This document shows, one piece after another, positions 44,163-53,164 of a DNA stretch of 64,000 bases. The DNA lies in assembly GCA_013166775.1 (NCBI GenBank), contig JABLTJ010000001.1:194237-258236 (forward strand). The letters are read 5' to 3'. A program made the position numbers and the translations under genes. The stretch comes from Promethearchaeati archaeon (GTDB taxonomy: Archaea; Asgardarchaeota; Heimdallarchaeia; Heimdallarchaeales; Heimdallarchaeaceae). Within the stretch, counting starts at the first letter, position 1; the number at the start of each line of letters is the position of its first letter. Under the pieces are notes generated by a model. That model worked only from the letters and a program-made list of their open reading frames with translations. It did not search any database and was not told where the DNA came from.

Positions 44163-45635
44163 ATGCAAGAAAGCTCCAGTAATTTAGAAGACCTTGTAGC
44201 TTACGGAATTAAGTGTTGCGAGAAAAAGGGAGTAGAGTATGCTGATGTAAAATATATGGATACAAGAATGCAAAATATATCTTACAAGAATGAAGCTTTA
44301 GAACAGCTAAGTAATATCGATAAGCGAGGTATAGGGATTAGATGTATACTAAATAAGAGTTGGGGATTCGCTAGTACAAATGAGTTAACAAGAGATAGCA
44401 TTACTGAATTAGCGGAAAAAGCAATGAAGATTACGAAGGCTTCTTCAATGGTTAAGAAATTTGATATTGAACTTGCTGACGAACCTGTTCATGAAGATAA
44501 TAAAATGACCCCCATTAAGAAAGATCCTTTTAAAATTGAGTTAGCTGAAAAAATGGATGTTCTTCAGCAAAGTGCTAAAATAATACGTGAATATTCAGAT
44601 AGAATCAAAGTAGCTACTAGTCATTTTGTTAGTAGACAAGATCATATGATATTGTATACAACTGAAGGATCAAAAATAGATCAAACTATTCTTTGGTGTG
44701 GTGGAGGAGTATCTGCAACAGCAGTTGAAGGTGGAGAAGTACAAACACGTAGTTTACCAGCAAGTTTCAGAGGTGATTTTCACACTGAGGGTTATGAATA
44801 CTTTGAGAATTTAAAACTCATAGAAATTTCAGAACAAACAGCTAAAGAATCTGTAAAGCTTTTATCAGCAAAGAAGATGCCTACTGAACAAGCTACTGTA
44901 ATATTAGGTCACTCTCAATTAGCACTACAGGTTCATGAGAGCTGTGGTCACCCAACTGAACTGGATAGAGCTTTAGGGTATGAAGCTGCTTATGCTGGAA
45001 CAAGTTTCCTAACAACAGACCTACTAGATACCAATTTCAAATATGGAAACGAATTAGTAACAATGGTTGCTGATGCTACGGTTCTTGGAGGATTGGGCAC
45101 TTTCTTCTATGATCACGAAGGTGTTAAAGCTCAAAGAAATATCATGGTCGATAAAGGAATTTTTACAGGCTTTATGTCCTCAAGAGAAACTGCAAAAGCC
45201 ATAGGATTGAATAGAAGTTCTGGTGCTGCGAGATCAATGGGATATGATAGAATTCCTATTGTAAGAATGACTAATGTTAATCTAGAACCTGGAGACTGGG
45301 AATTTGATGAACTAATTGGTGATACAAAGAAAGGATATTTCTTGGAAACTAATAGAAGCTGGAGTATAGATGATATCCGAATGAATTTCCAATTTGGTAC
45401 TGAAATAGGTTGGAAAATAGAAAACGGAGAAATGACCGAAATGATAAAGAATCCTACATATGAAGGAATAACACCAGAATTTTGGGGAAATGTTAGTGGA
45501 ATATGTAATAAAAACCATTGGAAGATTTTTGGAACACCAAACTGTGGAAAAGGAGAACCTGGACAAGCAGCTTACGTAGGTCATGGAATCGCTCCTACAA
45601 GATTCGATAATGTTCGTGTAGGAATTCTAAAATAA
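44163..45635 (+). CDS. tldD: TldD-type metalloprotease subunit
   Basis: Catalytic partner of the TldD/TldE protease, which in bacteria matures microcin B17 and degrades unfolded peptides. The zinc motif HESCGHPTELDR starts at residue 258 (HExxGHxxE). Further landmarks are YKNEALEQLSNIDKRGIGIRC, YDHEGVKAQRNIMVDKGIF and GYDRIPIVRMTNVNLEPGD. Length is 490 residues, normal. A GTTTTTAAC box about 28 bases before the ATG suggests a leaderless message. Its partner gene lies 12 kb away, on the other strand. Confidence 0.92.
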   Translation: MQESSSNLEDLVAYGIKCCEKKGVEYADVKYMDTRMQNISYKNEALEQLSNIDKRGIGIRCILNKSWGFASTNELTRDSITELAEKAMKITKASSMVKKFDIELADEPVHEDNKMTPIKKDPFKIELAEKMDVLQQSAKIIREYSDRIKVATSHFVSRQDHMILYTTEGSKIDQTILWCGGGVSATAVEGGEVQTRSLPASFRGDFHTEGYEYFENLKLIEISEQTAKESVKLLSAKKMPTEQATVILGHSQLALQVHESCGHPTELDRALGYEAAYAGTSFLTTDLLDTNFKYGNELVTMVADATVLGGLGTFFYDHEGVKAQRNIMVDKGIFTGFMSSRETAKAIGLNRSSGAARSMGYDRIPIVRMTNVNLEPGDWEFDELIGDTKKGYFLETNRSWSIDDIRMNFQFGTEIGWKIENGEMTEMIKNPTYEGITPEFWGNVSGICNKNHWKIFGTPNCGKGEPGQAAYVGHGIAPTRFDNVRVGILK

Positions 45636-46526
45636 AATATTCCGAATAAACTCTCCTATTTTCTTTATAGCTTTCTTGCTCTCAGGCATGAGATTTCCAA
45701 AAATTTGAAACACATGCCACATTCCTGGCCAAATGTCAGCTGTTACATCCACTTTTGCTTTTATTGCTTTTTCAGCGAAGCGTGTCGTATCATCAAGAAT
45801 AATCTCTTCTGTACCTGTTTGTAGTAATAGAGGTGGTAATCCTTCTAAATCTGCATAAAGTGGAGAAGCTAGCGGATTCTTACTGTCTGTGCCCTTAAGA
45901 TATATTTCAGCTGATTGTTGAAGTTCAATCTTAGTTGCCATTATTTCCTCCTTTGTTTTCGTCTCAACAGAATCACCAGTTAATGCTAAATCTGTCCAAG
46001 GAGATAGACATACTGCAGCAGCTGGAAGAGATATAGTTTCCTCACGTAGTTTGATCAAAGTTGCTAGTGCTAATCCTCCACCAGCAGAATCTCCCGCAAT
46101 TATTATTTTGTTGGACTTAATCCCTTTTTGATCTATTAACCATTTGTAAGCAGTAATTACATCCTCTAAACCAGCTGGAAATGGATTTTCTGGGGCAAGA
46201 CTGTAATCCAGACACAGGACTGGAATTTCTGAAGTTTTACCTATGCGAGCTGCTATACCTCGATGAGTATTTAGGGAACCTGCATTATAAGATCCTCCGT
46301 GTAGATATATGATTGCGCAATCTTTGTAACTCTTTGGAGGAAACAGCCACTCACCAGAAATTCCTTCGATCGATACTTGTTCAACTTTTACATTTTTTGG
46401 CTTTCGAAATAGAAAAACTCTGTTTTCTAGATTTTTTCTGTTTTCTTCTACATTCAAAATACCTTCATCTTTCATTGACATTAATCTCATGATTATGATG
46501 AATAATCTTGCACGTAAGCTAACCAT
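45627..46526 (-). CDS. Alpha/beta hydrolase, hormone-sensitive-lipase-like esterase
   Basis: The 299-residue enzyme shows the oxyanion motif YLHGGSYNAGS (HGG), LDYSLAPENPFPAGLED and the nucleophile elbow IAGDSAGGGLALATL (GDSAG). The acid is probably in the LLLQTGTEEIILDD segment, and the His in WPGMWHVFQIF. These are the landmarks of the HSL/family IV esterases. The natural ester substrate is unknown. It overlaps the 3' end of tldD by 9 bases tail to tail. Confidence 0.88.
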   Translation of the reverse strand: MVSLRARLFIIIMRLMSMKDEGILNVEENRKNLENRVFLFRKPKNVKVEQVSIEGISGEWLFPPKSYKDCAIIYLHGGSYNAGSLNTHRGIAARIGKTSEIPVLCLDYSLAPENPFPAGLEDVITAYKWLIDQKGIKSNKIIIAGDSAGGGLALATLIKLREETISLPAAAVCLSPWTDLALTGDSVETKTKEEIMATKIELQQSAEIYLKGTDSKNPLASPLYADLEGLPPLLLQTGTEEIILDDTTRFAEKAIKAKVDVTADIWPGMWHVFQIFGNLMPESKKAIKKIGEFIRNILF

Positions 46527-46593: not shown

Positions 46594-48324
46594 TTATAGA
46601 AGTAGTTTGAAATACTTTGTAAATTTCAAAATATACTTCAGGCCTTTAACTTTCAGATTTCCTGTGAGAATTGCTATTACAGGATTTGTTTTTCCTAAAC
46701 CTAAACCCATGAAAGTAGATCTATTTGTAGTGATTGATCCATCACATTCTTTCTTAGCTTTTTTAACTCTGCTTGTTGTGTTTTCAATTTGAGTGAAATC
46801 AATCTTTCCATTTCCTATATCCAAGATTACAGCCTTTGGATCTTCTTTTGCAACAATGAGTAGAGTATATTTATCTTCCTTAAATTTCTGAAATTCAGGA
46901 TTTACGTTAAGTGATTTAAGCATTGCAAAGATTAGAGATGCAAACCCCTCGTAATCTTTGATTTGATTGTATAAAGGCAGTATCATTTCCATTGCTTTTT
47001 CGTAGCGTTTTACAATTTCATCAACAACTGATTCATCCATGGGAGTTGAAAGAATGAATGCTGTTACTCCTCTAGATACTGCGTAAATTCCATTGATGGC
47101 TAATGATAATGTCAAATACTTTGATAGCTCTAAAGTGGGTATAAGCTTGAAAACAGTCTGTCTTCCATCTTCAACTGGTTCCTCAAATAGATAAACATAA
47201 ACAAGTGATTGGAGTCCACTAACCTGTCCCTTGATATCTAGTTCTTTTAACACATTTCGTAATCCTTCTCTTAGTCTATCACCCAGTTTTCCTAGTCGCT
47301 CAACCTCTTTTTCATTATACAACTCCATAGCTGTTTTCCCAGCAATCATAGTCATAGCATTTCCACTAAATGTCCCTGAATGAGTTATGAATTCCTTCTT
47401 TGTCGGATTAAATTGATTGATTATTTCGTGTTTTCCTCCAAAAGCCCCTACTGGTAAACCTCCACCTATTGTCTTTCCAAGAGCAGTTAGGTCAGGTACA
47501 ACTCCATAGTACTTTTGCATCCCTCCAGTTGATATACGGAAAGTGATGACTTCATCAAAAATTAGCAAAATATTATATTTTATAGTTAGCTCTCTTAATC
47601 CTTGGAGATATTCTTTGGTTGCAATTGCTCCTCCACCTGATCCCATAATCGGTTCGAGAATCATTGCTGCAATTTTCTTATGATGTTTTTTCATTACCTC
47701 TTCAGCAGCTGCTAAATCATTAAAGGGTACAATAAATACATCTTTCAGAATTGTTTTTGGTACGCCTTTTTCCACAGTTGCTATCGGCATCTCATCAGCT
47801 GTTAGATTTGGAGTAATATTGACTTCTACATAGTCATGAGAACCGTGATAGCCACCTTCTGTTTTTATGATTTTATCTTTTCCAGTGTATTTCCTCGCAG
47901 CCCTGATTGCAAACATTGTTGCTTCTGTTCCGGAATTGCAAAATCTAAGCAGCTCGATTGATGGTGTTCTTTCACATATTATCTTTGCAAGTTGGTGTTG
48001 AACTTCCATTGGAGCTGCATGAGCTGTTCCTTCGCTTGCTTGTTTTTGCATATTTTCAACAATTTTTTGATGAGCATGACCATGAATGTTCACAGTCATA
48101 CTATTAAGACAGTCAATGTATTCATTGCCATCAAAATCATAAAGATAGCAACCTTCTCCTTTAGTTACGAAGAAAGGATAGGGGTAAAAATGTGCTACAT
48201 TTCTTGTTCCTCCTCCTGGAAGCCATTTCTGTGCTTCTTCAAAATGTTTCTTTGATCCTTGCGTCTTATTTTTGTATTCATTTATAATATTGCTCTTTAT
48301 ATTCTCTAAATCTTCAATAGACAT
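46594..48324 (-). CDS. Class III aminotransferase / glutamate-1-semialdehyde-aminomutase-like enzyme fused to SCP2 domain
   Basis: Residues 1-455 are a PLP fold-type I enzyme. Landmarks are FVTKGEGCYLYDFDGNEYID, CNSGTEATMFAIRAARKYTG, LLIFDEVITFR (D257 holds the PLP pyridine), ALGKTIGGGLPVGAFGG (catalytic K284) and SGTFSGNAMTM. This is closest to glutamate-1-semialdehyde 2,1-aminomutase and related amino mutases or transaminases. Residues about 458-576 form a separate domain with DPKAVILDIGNGKIDF, NPVIAILTGNLKVKGLKYIL and a final hydrophobic helix. That fits the SCP2 sterol/lipid-carrier fold. No haem-pathway genes are near, so a lipid-linked amine or amino acid substrate is my inference. The fusion is unusual. 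Confidence 0.8.
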   Translation of the reverse strand: MSIEDLENIKSNIINEYKNKTQGSKKHFEEAQKWLPGGGTRNVAHFYPYPFFVTKGEGCYLYDFDGNEYIDCLNSMTVNIHGHAHQKIVENMQKQASEGTAHAAPMEVQHQLAKIICERTPSIELLRFCNSGTEATMFAIRAARKYTGKDKIIKTEGGYHGSHDYVEVNITPNLTADEMPIATVEKGVPKTILKDVFIVPFNDLAAAEEVMKKHHKKIAAMILEPIMGSGGGAIATKEYLQGLRELTIKYNILLIFDEVITFRISTGGMQKYYGVVPDLTALGKTIGGGLPVGAFGGKHEIINQFNPTKKEFITHSGTFSGNAMTMIAGKTAMELYNEKEVERLGKLGDRLREGLRNVLKELDIKGQVSGLQSLVYVYLFEEPVEDGRQTVFKLIPTLELSKYLTLSLAINGIYAVSRGVTAFILSTPMDESVVDEIVKRYEKAMEMILPLYNQIKDYEGFASLIFAMLKSLNVNPEFQKFKEDKYTLLIVAKEDPKAVILDIGNGKIDFTQIENTTSRVKKAKKECDGSITTNRSTFMGLGLGKTNPVIAILTGNLKVKGLKYILKFTKYFKLLL

Positions 48325-48483: not shown

Positions 48484-49305
48484 ATGAAATTCATTGCAAA
48501 AATTATAATTCAAATAGGTATAGTACTTGGTTTCATTGGAACAGTAGTAGTTAATGCGCTTTCTTCTGTTGGACTTATTAACAATGTAGATCCTGGAACA
48601 CTGTCTGACAATATACCCAATTTCTTTGTTCCATCAGGTTTGACTTTTTCAATATGGGGCGTAATTTATATTGGATTGGCTGCTTTAGCAGTTTATAGTA
48701 CTGTAGCTCTTTTCAAGAAGAGGGAAGAAGAGAGTTATTTTCTAAATAAAATGGGTATTGAGTTCATCGTAGCTTCAATAGCAAATATAACATGGATTTT
48801 CTTATGGCATTATCAAACTCCAGCAAACTATATGGTAGAATTTTCCCTTGTTGCTATGGTAATTCTATTAGCAGCTTTACTCACAATGTATATTAGACTT
48901 GGTATAGGCAAAGAAGAAGTATCAAAAAAAGAAAAATGGTTTGTACATATCCCAATTAGTCTATATCTAGGATGGATTACTATAGCTACAGTAGCTAATG
49001 CAACAGCTGTATTAGTTGACTTATCTATCAATAAATTATTGTACTTAAGTTATGGTTTAACTGAAGTATACTGGACTAATTTTATGCTTCTAGTTGCTAC
49101 AATTATCACATTATTGATGCTCTTTATTAGAAAAGATATTGCGTATAGTTTAGTTGTTATTTGGGCTTTTGTAGGAATATTAACTAAAAGAATTAGTGAT
49201 ATTCCAACTCAACTTGAAATAATAACAACCTCTGCAATTGGTATAGGTTTAATATTAGTTATGATTGGTTATATTACTTATAAATTGATAAAGAAAAAAT
49301 CTTAA
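48484..49305 (+). CDS. TspO/MBR-related membrane protein
   Basis: The 273-residue membrane protein has seven hydrophobic segments. PSGLTFSIWGVIYIGLAALA matches the family motif PxxxFxxxWxxxY, and ANITWIFLWHYQTPANYMVE and LYLGWITIATVANATAVLV follow the family's Trp-rich pattern. TspO proteins bind porphyrins and steroids and affect stress and tetrapyrrole handling; here that is inferred. This longer variant is like the TspO-related proteins of some bacteria and eukaryotes. The start is ATG, with AT-rich promoter sequence about 25 bases upstream. Confidence 0.7.
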   Translation: MKFIAKIIIQIGIVLGFIGTVVVNALSSVGLINNVDPGTLSDNIPNFFVPSGLTFSIWGVIYIGLAALAVYSTVALFKKREEESYFLNKMGIEFIVASIANITWIFLWHYQTPANYMVEFSLVAMVILLAALLTMYIRLGIGKEEVSKKEKWFVHIPISLYLGWITIATVANATAVLVDLSINKLLYLSYGLTEVYWTNFMLLVATIITLLMLFIRKDIAYSLVVIWAFVGILTKRISDIPTQLEIITTSAIGIGLILVMIGYITYKLIKKKS

Positions 49306-50785: not shown

Positions 50786-52243
50786 ATGATAGATTTAAGT
50801 ATAGACGAAATTGAGTTAAAAGAAGCTGTAGAAAGAGCTCAAGAAAAAAACATAATCATACCAACTTTTGCACAACAAAGGAATCCAAATTTAATAGAAA
50901 AACACATAGTTGAGGAATTAGCACAAATAGGGCTTTGGGATATTCATCCAAGAAATTTGTTCAGAATCACATGGAAAAATGAACCTATAATTAAGGGAGG
51001 ACGATTTGGTGACGTAAATTATATTGAGTTACCTCCAGAGTTGACTGGTGTTGAAGCACGAATCATTGGATTAATAGGAAAATATTTTCCAACTGGTGCT
51101 CATAAGGTTGGAGCAACTTTTGGATGTTTAGTTCCTAGGTTAGTAACTGGACAATTCAATCCTATAGTACATAAAGCAGTGTGGCCAAGTACCGGAAATT
51201 ATTGTAGAGGAGGTGCATACGATTCAACACTCCTTGCTTGTGAATCTATAGCTATCCTTCCAGAAGAGATGTCACTGGAGAGATTTGAGTGGTTGAGTTC
51301 CGTAGCTGGAGAGATTATTAAAACACCTGGAAGTGAGAGCAATGTTAAAGAGATATTTGACAAAGTCTGGGAACTCAGGCGAACTAGAGAAAATATCTTT
51401 GTATTCAATCAGTTTGAGGAATTTGGCAATTACTTGTGGCATTATGATATTACTGGTCATGCAATGGAAGAAGTACTGGAAAGGGAGCTGAAAGGTTGTA
51501 AATTCAAAGGAATTGTATTAACTACTGGCTCAGCGGGAACAATAGGTTGTGGAGATTATCTGAAAAATAAATATCCTTCAATGAAAATCGCAGCAGGTGA
51601 AGCTTTACAATGTCCAACTATGCTTGTAAATGGATACGGAGCACATGGGATTGAAGGAATTGGTGATAAGCATATTCCCTGGATTCATAATGTGAAGAAT
51701 ACTGATATGGTTATAGCAATTGATGATAATGACACAAAAAGAATTATGCGATTGTTTAACGAAAAAGAAGGTCAACTGTATTTAGAAGAGATAGGTGTTC
51801 CTAAGCACATAGTAGAGAAATTGCCACTTCTAGGAATTTCGAGCATAGCGAATCTACTCATGGCTATAAAATTTGCTAAATATTATGAGTTAACAAGTAC
51901 TGATGTTATCCTAACTGTATTTACTGATTCTATGGAATTATACCAATCCAGATTGAAGGAAATGCATGCTGAATTTGGTTCTTACAAACGTGATGATGCA
52001 ATTAGGGATTCCAATACTAATCTTCAAGGTCAAAAAATTGACAACATGCTTGAACTAGACTACTATGGTAAGAAAAGAATACATAATCTGAAGTATTTCA
52101 CTTGGATCGAACAACAAGGGAAGGATTTGGATGAATTGAATAAGCAATGGTATGATCCTAATTACTGGAAATCAATACAATCATTGTCACAACCAATCGA
52201 TGAGTTAATTGATGATTTTAACAAAAAAGTTGGATTGATTTAA
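50786..52243 (+). CDS. PLP-dependent enzyme of the cysteine synthase / tryptophan synthase beta fold
   Basis: Fold-type II PLP enzyme of 485 residues. FPTGAHKVGATFGCL carries the Schiff-base Lys (K107), WPSTGNYCRGGAYDSTL matches the substrate loop (TSGNT in CysK), and LTTGSAGTIGCGDYLKNKYP is the phosphate-binding Gly-rich loop. It is longer than CysK (about 310) and has an extra C-terminal region of about 130 residues with helices. It belongs to a prokaryotic subgroup without a defined reaction, as far as I recognise. Substrate unknown; no sulfur-metabolism genes are adjacent. Confidence 0.75.
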   Translation: MIDLSIDEIELKEAVERAQEKNIIIPTFAQQRNPNLIEKHIVEELAQIGLWDIHPRNLFRITWKNEPIIKGGRFGDVNYIELPPELTGVEARIIGLIGKYFPTGAHKVGATFGCLVPRLVTGQFNPIVHKAVWPSTGNYCRGGAYDSTLLACESIAILPEEMSLERFEWLSSVAGEIIKTPGSESNVKEIFDKVWELRRTRENIFVFNQFEEFGNYLWHYDITGHAMEEVLERELKGCKFKGIVLTTGSAGTIGCGDYLKNKYPSMKIAAGEALQCPTMLVNGYGAHGIEGIGDKHIPWIHNVKNTDMVIAIDDNDTKRIMRLFNEKEGQLYLEEIGVPKHIVEKLPLLGISSIANLLMAIKFAKYYELTSTDVILTVFTDSMELYQSRLKEMHAEFGSYKRDDAIRDSNTNLQGQKIDNMLELDYYGKKRIHNLKYFTWIEQQGKDLDELNKQWYDPNYWKSIQSLSQPIDELIDDFNKKVGLI

Positions 52244-52348: not shown

Positions 52349-53164
52349 ATGAGTGAAGTCACAAGAGATGATTTTGATGATATAAAGGATGGTATAATTT
52401 CATCTCTTGTAGATTCTGAATTAGAAGACCAAACACGATTTACTAGCTCCTTAGAAAGGATGGAGGAACGAGTTCAAGAATGCATAGATGAGATAATTGT
52501 CATTTTACAGGATTATATCCCTAAGGAAATATTAATTCAAGCTGTAACTCAGTTTGAAAGTATTCAACTTTTACTAATAACAGATAAGATAAATCGTAAA
52601 AAACACTTTACAAAAAATCAAATCGTAACTATCTTTCTAGCTATTTTAGACAATGTTTTATCTTTGATATATGAAAACATTGCAAGCTTCCATTTCAAAC
52701 TTCTCAGAAAAAATATGAGAGGATTGAGTAATGGAAAATCTTTCAGCTATAACAACATGAAAAAAATACAAATTGAATTAATTCAATCAGAATCTATAAC
52801 AAAGATTAGAAAAATTGGTTATACTTTAAAACTAAAAGACAGTTACTGTCAAATCATCAGTAATATGATGTCTGTTTATCCACAATATAAGAATCAACTG
52901 AGTGAAATAGAAGTAGCAGGCTATGATTTAATTCACTCAAGAGCCATTCCTAAACTCGAAGTGACGAAATCAGCTGTTGTTGTCATAGCTTCTCTTCTCC
53001 CAGTTTATTTTAAGAAAAAGGAGGAAAAACAAAATCTATGGAAATATATTGAGGAAATTGTAGATGAAGATGAAGATCAATTGAAAAGAAAAATCTATCG
53101 TTTTCGATCCAATCTTCGAAAAATGGAAAATGTTGACTTATTTAGTTATAAAAATGAGCTGTAG
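52349..53164 (+). CDS. Unrecognised helical protein
   Basis: The 271-residue protein is acidic at its N-terminus (TRDDFDDIKDGIISSLVDSE) and becomes basic toward the C-terminus (DQLKRKIYRFRSNLRKME). It appears all-helical, with helices of 15-20 residues and the hydrophobic stretch SAVVVIASLLPVYF, which could be a buried helix rather than a membrane segment. The GAGG before the ATG fits a real start. The helical layout loosely suggests a cyclin- or TFIIB-like box repeat. I do not claim that function. Confidence 0.55.
   Translation: MSEVTRDDFDDIKDGIISSLVDSELEDQTRFTSSLERMEERVQECIDEIIVILQDYIPKEILIQAVTQFESIQLLLITDKINRKKHFTKNQIVTIFLAILDNVLSLIYENIASFHFKLLRKNMRGLSNGKSFSYNNMKKIQIELIQSESITKIRKIGYTLKLKDSYCQIISNMMSVYPQYKNQLSEIEVAGYDLIHSRAIPKLEVTKSAVVVIASLLPVYFKKKEEKQNLWKYIEEIVDEDEDQLKRKIYRFRSNLRKMENVDLFSYKNEL

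Follow-up and report, generated by a model that had tools for sequence, protein, structure and literature searches.

The locus raises the question of what an archaeal PLP-dependent aminotransferase would do with an SCP2 domain of its own. In the window (the 64,000-nucleotide stretch of a Heimdallarchaeial contig that was analyzed), positions 46594 to 48324 of the minus strand form a single uninterrupted ORF of 576 codons with an ATG start. The 576-aa product had been described in an earlier note, made from the sequence alone, as a class III aminotransferase fused to an SCP2 domain; both domains were found to exceed their Pfam cut-offs, and the two catalytic residues and the tail peptide quoted in that note are all present. 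The aminotransferase part comprises residues 1 to 445 (46990 to 48324, minus strand), has 6K8H as its nearest solved structure by sequence and fold, and is matched by Pfam Aminotran_3 (PF00202) over residues 49 to 383 at 222.9 bits (cut-off 30.5, E-value 7.3e-66). The SCP2-fold module, delimited by predicted structure and fold search, spans residues 460 to 575 (46600 to 46947, minus strand) and includes the Pfam SCP2 (PF02036) match at residues 487 to 572 (46609 to 46866, minus strand). Four residues of the enzyme part were located by alignment, all on the minus strand: (i) Lys284 (47473 to 47475), the Schiff-base lysine, aligned with K282 of StoTA, the Sphaerobacter thermophilus omega-transaminase of 6K8H; (ii) Asp257 (47554 to 47556), the PLP-pyridine aspartate within an FDEV motif; (iii) Arg41 (48202 to 48204), aligned with StoTA R36 and VpAT R41, for which substrate-carboxylate binding has been proposed or described; and (iv) Asn74 (48103 to 48105), aligned with StoTA N70 near the PLP phosphate. 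K284 and D257 match the PLP lysine and aspartate of class III enzymes and, like R41 and N74, are invariant among the orthologues (18 sequences for the latter pair). An assembly or frameshift artifact can be dismissed, since numerous separately assembled MAGs carry the fusion.

The earlier note had proposed a survey of Asgard genomes, and in such a survey (97 genomes, the window's own included) the fusion proved to be conserved and confined to two related genera. Of 30 genomes sampled from two Heimdallarchaeial genera, 27 had the fused gene (20 of 21 from the genus of the window and 7 of 9 from genus g12 of family f6, same class), with the gene cut by a contig end in four of the 27; none of the 67 other Asgard genomes surveyed carried it. 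A profile of the tail run over 196 Asgard genomes likewise returned fusions of about 580 aa only in these two genera. Named relatives of 59 to 87% identity belong to Candidatus Heimdallarchaeota MAGs and one Asgard group archaeon MAG, while the nearest unfused relatives (475 aa, about 43% identical) could be aligned only up to residue 457. The fusion is thus real, conserved, and lineage-restricted. Two subtypes of about 62% identity were distinguished, both of which coexist in one genome (G013). In the tree, the second subtype from the window's genus nests among the sequences of family f6, so a gene transfer between the two Heimdallarchaeial families is suggested and appears probable. Beyond the Asgard genomes, no relative was found in the viral contigs, and 1,917 plasmid records carried relatives, all of less than 60% identity. 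Among the best 20 of these 1,917 records, 19 relatives end at residues 442 to 461, the top one (Caballeronia, H1) extends to residue 493, and the combination of an aminotransferase with SCP2 was not found. Nothing relevant emerged from the literature when the fusion, or SCP2 in archaea of the Asgard or Heimdall groups, was searched for. Within the sampled Asgard genomes, the viral contigs, the best 20 plasmid records, and the literature searched, no second case of a PLP aminotransferase with its own SCP2 domain was found, and both the architecture and its lineage appear new.

Structure prediction and an HMM search, both suggested in the earlier note as checks on the tail, gave concordant results. 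Pfam SCP2 scored 25.3 bits in the whole protein and 29.1 bits (E-value 1.3e-6) when the tail alone was the query, against a gathering cut-off of 21.3; each of the 18 aligned orthologues gave a match at an E-value of 0.01 or better, and an HMM built from the tail independently retrieved mammalian SCP2 (E-value 1.5e-4). An AlphaFold2 model of the isolated domain, based on the 18-sequence tail alignment, had a mean pLDDT of 88.6 and an SCP2 fold in the order helix-helix(-helix)-beta1-beta2-beta3-helix-beta4-helix-helix-beta5-helix. When this model was compared with the PDB by Foldseek, ranks 1 to 46 were all SCP2, UbiJ-SCP2, MFE-2 SCP2-like, or alkylsulfatase-type C-terminal domains (best E-value 1.6e-6; 41 of the 46 at 0.001 or better; TM-scores of about 0.5 to 0.7; probability 1.00 for nearly all), including structures of known SCP2-enzyme fusions. 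Nor is the tail a portion of the ordinary aminomutase, as it is absent from the unfused homologues (the 475-aa relatives in L034 to L036 and the 441-aa Asgard HemL in L114). We conclude that the tail is a genuine SCP2 domain, for which hydrophobic-ligand binding is predicted.

Whether the domain has kept such a function bears on a further explanation, in which the tail derives from SCP2 but has lost ligand binding and now has a structural or dimer-stabilizing role. Its identity to the solved SCP2 domains among the PDB fold matches is only about 12 to 24%, and for most pairs it diverges faster than the catalytic part, as this explanation would have it; against it, nearly all copies retain the core motif of SCP2, F-x-G ... 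G ... A-x-L ... L-x-x-x-G. By pairwise Nei-Gojobori estimates, dN/dS was 0.04 to 0.11 for the enzyme part and 0.07 to 0.20 for the tail in estimable pairs, the tail value of one pair being inestimable through saturation. The tail is therefore no decaying linker and is under purifying selection, usually weaker than that on the enzyme, and the loss of ligand binding is accordingly considered quite improbable. Because the active-site loops were of low confidence in the full-length model, that model was not used to position the SCP2 pocket relative to the active site.

The identity of the enzyme part was examined next to that of glutamate-1-semialdehyde aminomutase (HemL, GSAM), since the earlier note had called it GSA-aminomutase-like. 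The family similarity stands: the class III family and the overall fold are shared, and HemL models head the NCBIfam matches of the fusion protein. The further reading of the protein as HemL with an accessory tail does not, and several lines of evidence make it highly improbable. The score against the HemL model TIGR00713 was 368 bits, well below the equivalog cut-off of 527. The substrate motif differs as well, with R-N-V-A in the fusion where two GSAMs of the PDB and the Asgard HemL of L114 read S-P-V-R; the GSAM arginine thus sits three positions later than R41, within the S-x-x-R motif whose arginine is invariant in the GSA subfamily (PMC3870968). Neither HemA (TIGR01035) nor HemB (PF00490) was matched in the window's genome, which is 88.7% complete, such that one absence would be weak evidence and the two jointly are weighty; control searches found the two in 14 of 14 and 11 of 14 genomes, respectively. 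Finally, the bona fide Asgard HemL of L114, which is encoded in a hem gene cluster, groups in the tree with the GSAMs and away from the fusion, with StoTA as a long branch joining at an open fork, which leaves StoTA no more than a candidate sister of the fusion. The HemL/GSAM identity was therefore rejected.

In place of this identity, the evidence points to an enzyme of the beta-amino-acid type. StoTA (6K8H) was the closest solved structure by sequence (E-value 1e-98) and the top Foldseek match (E-value 3e-36), with the same fold and an identity of about 39 to 40% over 434 to 436 aligned columns. The family motif of the fusion aminotransferase, LPGGGTRNV...PYPFF...NSMT, includes the invariant R41 at the carboxylate-arginine position of VpAT R41 and StoTA R36, so that the carboxylate-pocket arginine and asparagine and the PLP lysine are the same as in StoTA; unlike the fusion, StoTA is bacterial and without an SCP2 domain. 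The role of this arginine is tentative for StoTA, whose paper states that R36 "might be" the binder of the substrate carboxylate, and for VpAT an ionic bond between R41 and the carboxylate is described. StoTA accepts beta-amino acids of the aromatic, branched, and aliphatic kinds as well as a gamma-amino acid. By its predicted pocket, the fusion enzyme is best read as a putative beta-/gamma-amino-acid-type omega-transaminase. In family f20, the gene of the nearest unfused aminotransferase relative has a conserved arrangement with genes for an aspartokinase and a semialdehyde dehydrogenase (L099 5295 to 10526, L100, and L103; both neighbors confirmed by Pfam in L099), so that a semialdehyde-related substrate is suggested for that relative.

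Fusions of SCP2 to enzymes occur in eukaryotes and bacteria, and the domain is otherwise a marker of sterol, fatty-acid, and isoprenoid handling. MFE-2 (HSD17B4), the SCP-x thiolase, and the bacterial alkylsulfatases SdsA1 and Pisa1 resemble the present protein in having an enzyme followed by a C-terminal SCP2-fold domain, yet their catalytic domains are a dehydrogenase/hydratase, a thiolase, or a sulfatase rather than an aminotransferase. The closest relatives of the tail are instead Asgard proteins: among the 196 Asgard genomes, they are the SCP2 subfamily of L079 to L096 (E-values 1e-30 to 1e-15), whose members differ from the fusion in being standalone or placed on a URO-D-type protein. 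The small standalone members (family f23) reach 1e-30, and seven URO-D-type proteins of about 530 aa with the same SCP2-like tail were inspected in families f8 and f5 (L090 to L096). Since these are the closest relatives, the SCP2 domain of the fusion was probably captured from the Asgard gene pool as a reused module. In three of the loci examined (L090 3687 to 5921, L092 8275 to 10522, and L095 8754 to 11004), the URO-D-type fusion is adjoined by a gene for a B12-binding, corrinoid-protein-like product, Pfam-confirmed in L090; the arrangement is as in methyltransferase systems, and we know of no description of a URO-D-type SCP2 fusion beside a B12-binding gene.

The genome of the window itself has six SCP2 matches, the fusion tail included. 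The others are (i) an old-yellow-enzyme/2,4-dienoyl-CoA-reductase-like protein with a C-terminal SCP2 (L002 1 to 1800); (ii) an arylsulfotransferase with an N-terminal hydrophobic segment and SCP2 (L003 1 to 2022); (iii) an SCP2 behind N-terminal hydrophobic segments (L001); (iv) a further match in L004; and (v) a standalone SCP2 gene adjoining ferredoxin-like and FAD-dependent genes (L006 1492 to 3299). The FAD-dependent gene is possibly geranylgeranyl-reductase-like, which would fit a putative role in archaeal lipid saturation. The presence of SCP2 on several Asgard enzymes, and as a standalone gene beside FAD-dependent and ferredoxin-like genes, is consistent with a reusable hydrophobic-ligand module. 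That SCP2 is found not only in the fusion but also joined to a reductase, a sulfotransferase, and URO-D-type proteins suggests a wide distribution of SCP2-assisted metabolism among Asgard archaea, which are close to the origin of eukaryotes; the fusion itself is lineage-specific.

By computation, the protein has both folds, a complete PLP site (K284 and D257), a carboxylate pocket of the beta-amino-acid type (R41 with N74), and no GSAM motif; the function is one that we infer from these features with moderate confidence. Our tentative proposal, to which we give somewhat less than an even chance, is an aminotransferase of the beta-amino-acid type in which the SCP2 domain takes up a lipid or the hydrophobic end of the substrate and either serves the active site or docks the enzyme on lipid. 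PLP would accept the amino group from a donor and exchange it with a substrate that has its keto or amino group beta or gamma to a carboxylate gripped by R41, while SCP2 would deliver the bound substrate to the active site or keep the enzyme at the lipid. The likely substrate class would be a hydrophobic beta-keto/beta-amino acid, and if so, this would point to an as yet undescribed Asgard metabolism of beta-amino acids or amino-lipids. A bolder version, which we regard as a long shot, holds that the enzyme aminates the heads of lipid-borne beta-keto acids, with its own SCP2 gripping the chain, and thereby makes or recycles beta-amino lipids as part of a wider Asgard system in which SCP2 modules supply various unrelated enzymes with hydrophobic substrates.

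Counter to the tentative proposal, the predicted free-carboxylate pocket would fit beta-amino acids better than lipid thioesters, and SCP2-family domains are not in every case lipid shuttles. An alternative is that the aminotransferase acts on small soluble beta- or gamma-amino acids and that SCP2 anchors it to membranes or partners, or senses lipid, with no part in substrate delivery. The likeness of the pocket to those of enzymes for small beta-amino acids agrees with this, as do the SCP2 domains of the same genome on proteins with N-terminal hydrophobic segments (L001 and L003), the related tails on apparent membrane proteins of other Asgard genomes (L097 and L098), and the presence of the same tail subfamily on unrelated proteins. 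However, the fusion protein has no obvious transmembrane anchor, and the SCP2 domains of the known enzyme fusions (MFE-2, SCP-x, and the alkylsulfatases) are generally discussed as hydrophobic-ligand binders. We consider the alternative somewhat unlikely, albeit one to be taken seriously.

Thioester substrates were weighed in the same manner. Acyl-CoAs are known ligands of SCP2 domains, and the enzyme could be a beta-transaminase of 3-oxoacyl/3-aminoacyl thioesters, bound to CoA or to a carrier, with SCP2 gripping the acyl chain or the CoA ester. A precedent is Kat, a bacterial class III 3-aminobutyryl-CoA aminotransferase that is active on CoA esters only and was originally labeled HemL in a genome that lacks porphyrin genes (PMC3149608); another is the bacterial MycA aminotransferase domain, which acts on an ACP-bound beta-ketothioester (PMC3870968). 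Both are class III enzymes that perform carrier-linked beta-amination of acyl thioesters. They differ from the fusion in that they are bacterial and their carrier is CoA or ACP rather than SCP2, and Kat is likened to it by description. In opposition to a thioester substrate, a free carboxylate is implied by R41, neither a thiolase nor an acyl-CoA gene was recognized adjoining the fusion, and BKACE (PF05853), a step of the Kat lysine fermentation, was not found in the window's genome. The last result makes a Kat-type lysine fermentation unlikely; thioester chemistry of the Kat kind stays among the rival explanations, although as a decidedly improbable one. Kat and MycA also bear on the earlier note, which had suggested amination of a lipid-linked or acyl substrate, a chemistry not known to be described in archaea. 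A lipid-linked substrate can plausibly be inferred, and the statement on archaea is uncontradicted in the literature searched; by analogy, however, the chemistry is not new in kind, because acyl-CoA and carrier-bound beta-transamination are known from class III enzymes of bacteria.

The neighboring genes were compared across the loci examined, and outside the subclade of the window the neighborhood was not conserved and revealed no pathway. The next gene downstream of the fusion encodes an Abhydrolase_3/hormone-sensitive-lipase-type esterase by Pfam and NCBIfam (45627 to 46526, minus strand), a pairing found in 8 examined loci, all from the window's subclade, and absent from the second subtype. 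Under the proposal of a hydrophobic beta-keto acid substrate, this esterase might release the substrate in the window's subclade, giving a speculative route of ester hydrolysis followed by transamination; this is the weakest step of the mechanism and is given little weight. The same order of reactions with beta-keto esters is cited as a laboratory route (PMC10589169). On the upstream side of the fusion and on the opposite strand lies a PLP-dependent PALP/cysteine-synthase-like enzyme (50786 to 52243, plus strand) that accompanies the fusion in 12 loci of the subclade; it is divergent, cysteine-synthase/TrpB-like, and far below the NCBIfam cut-offs. Pfam matched neither of two further products: a multi-helix membrane protein, TspO-like by eye, at 48484 to 49305, and a 271-aa protein at 52349 to 53164 that adjoins the PALP enzyme in 11 loci.
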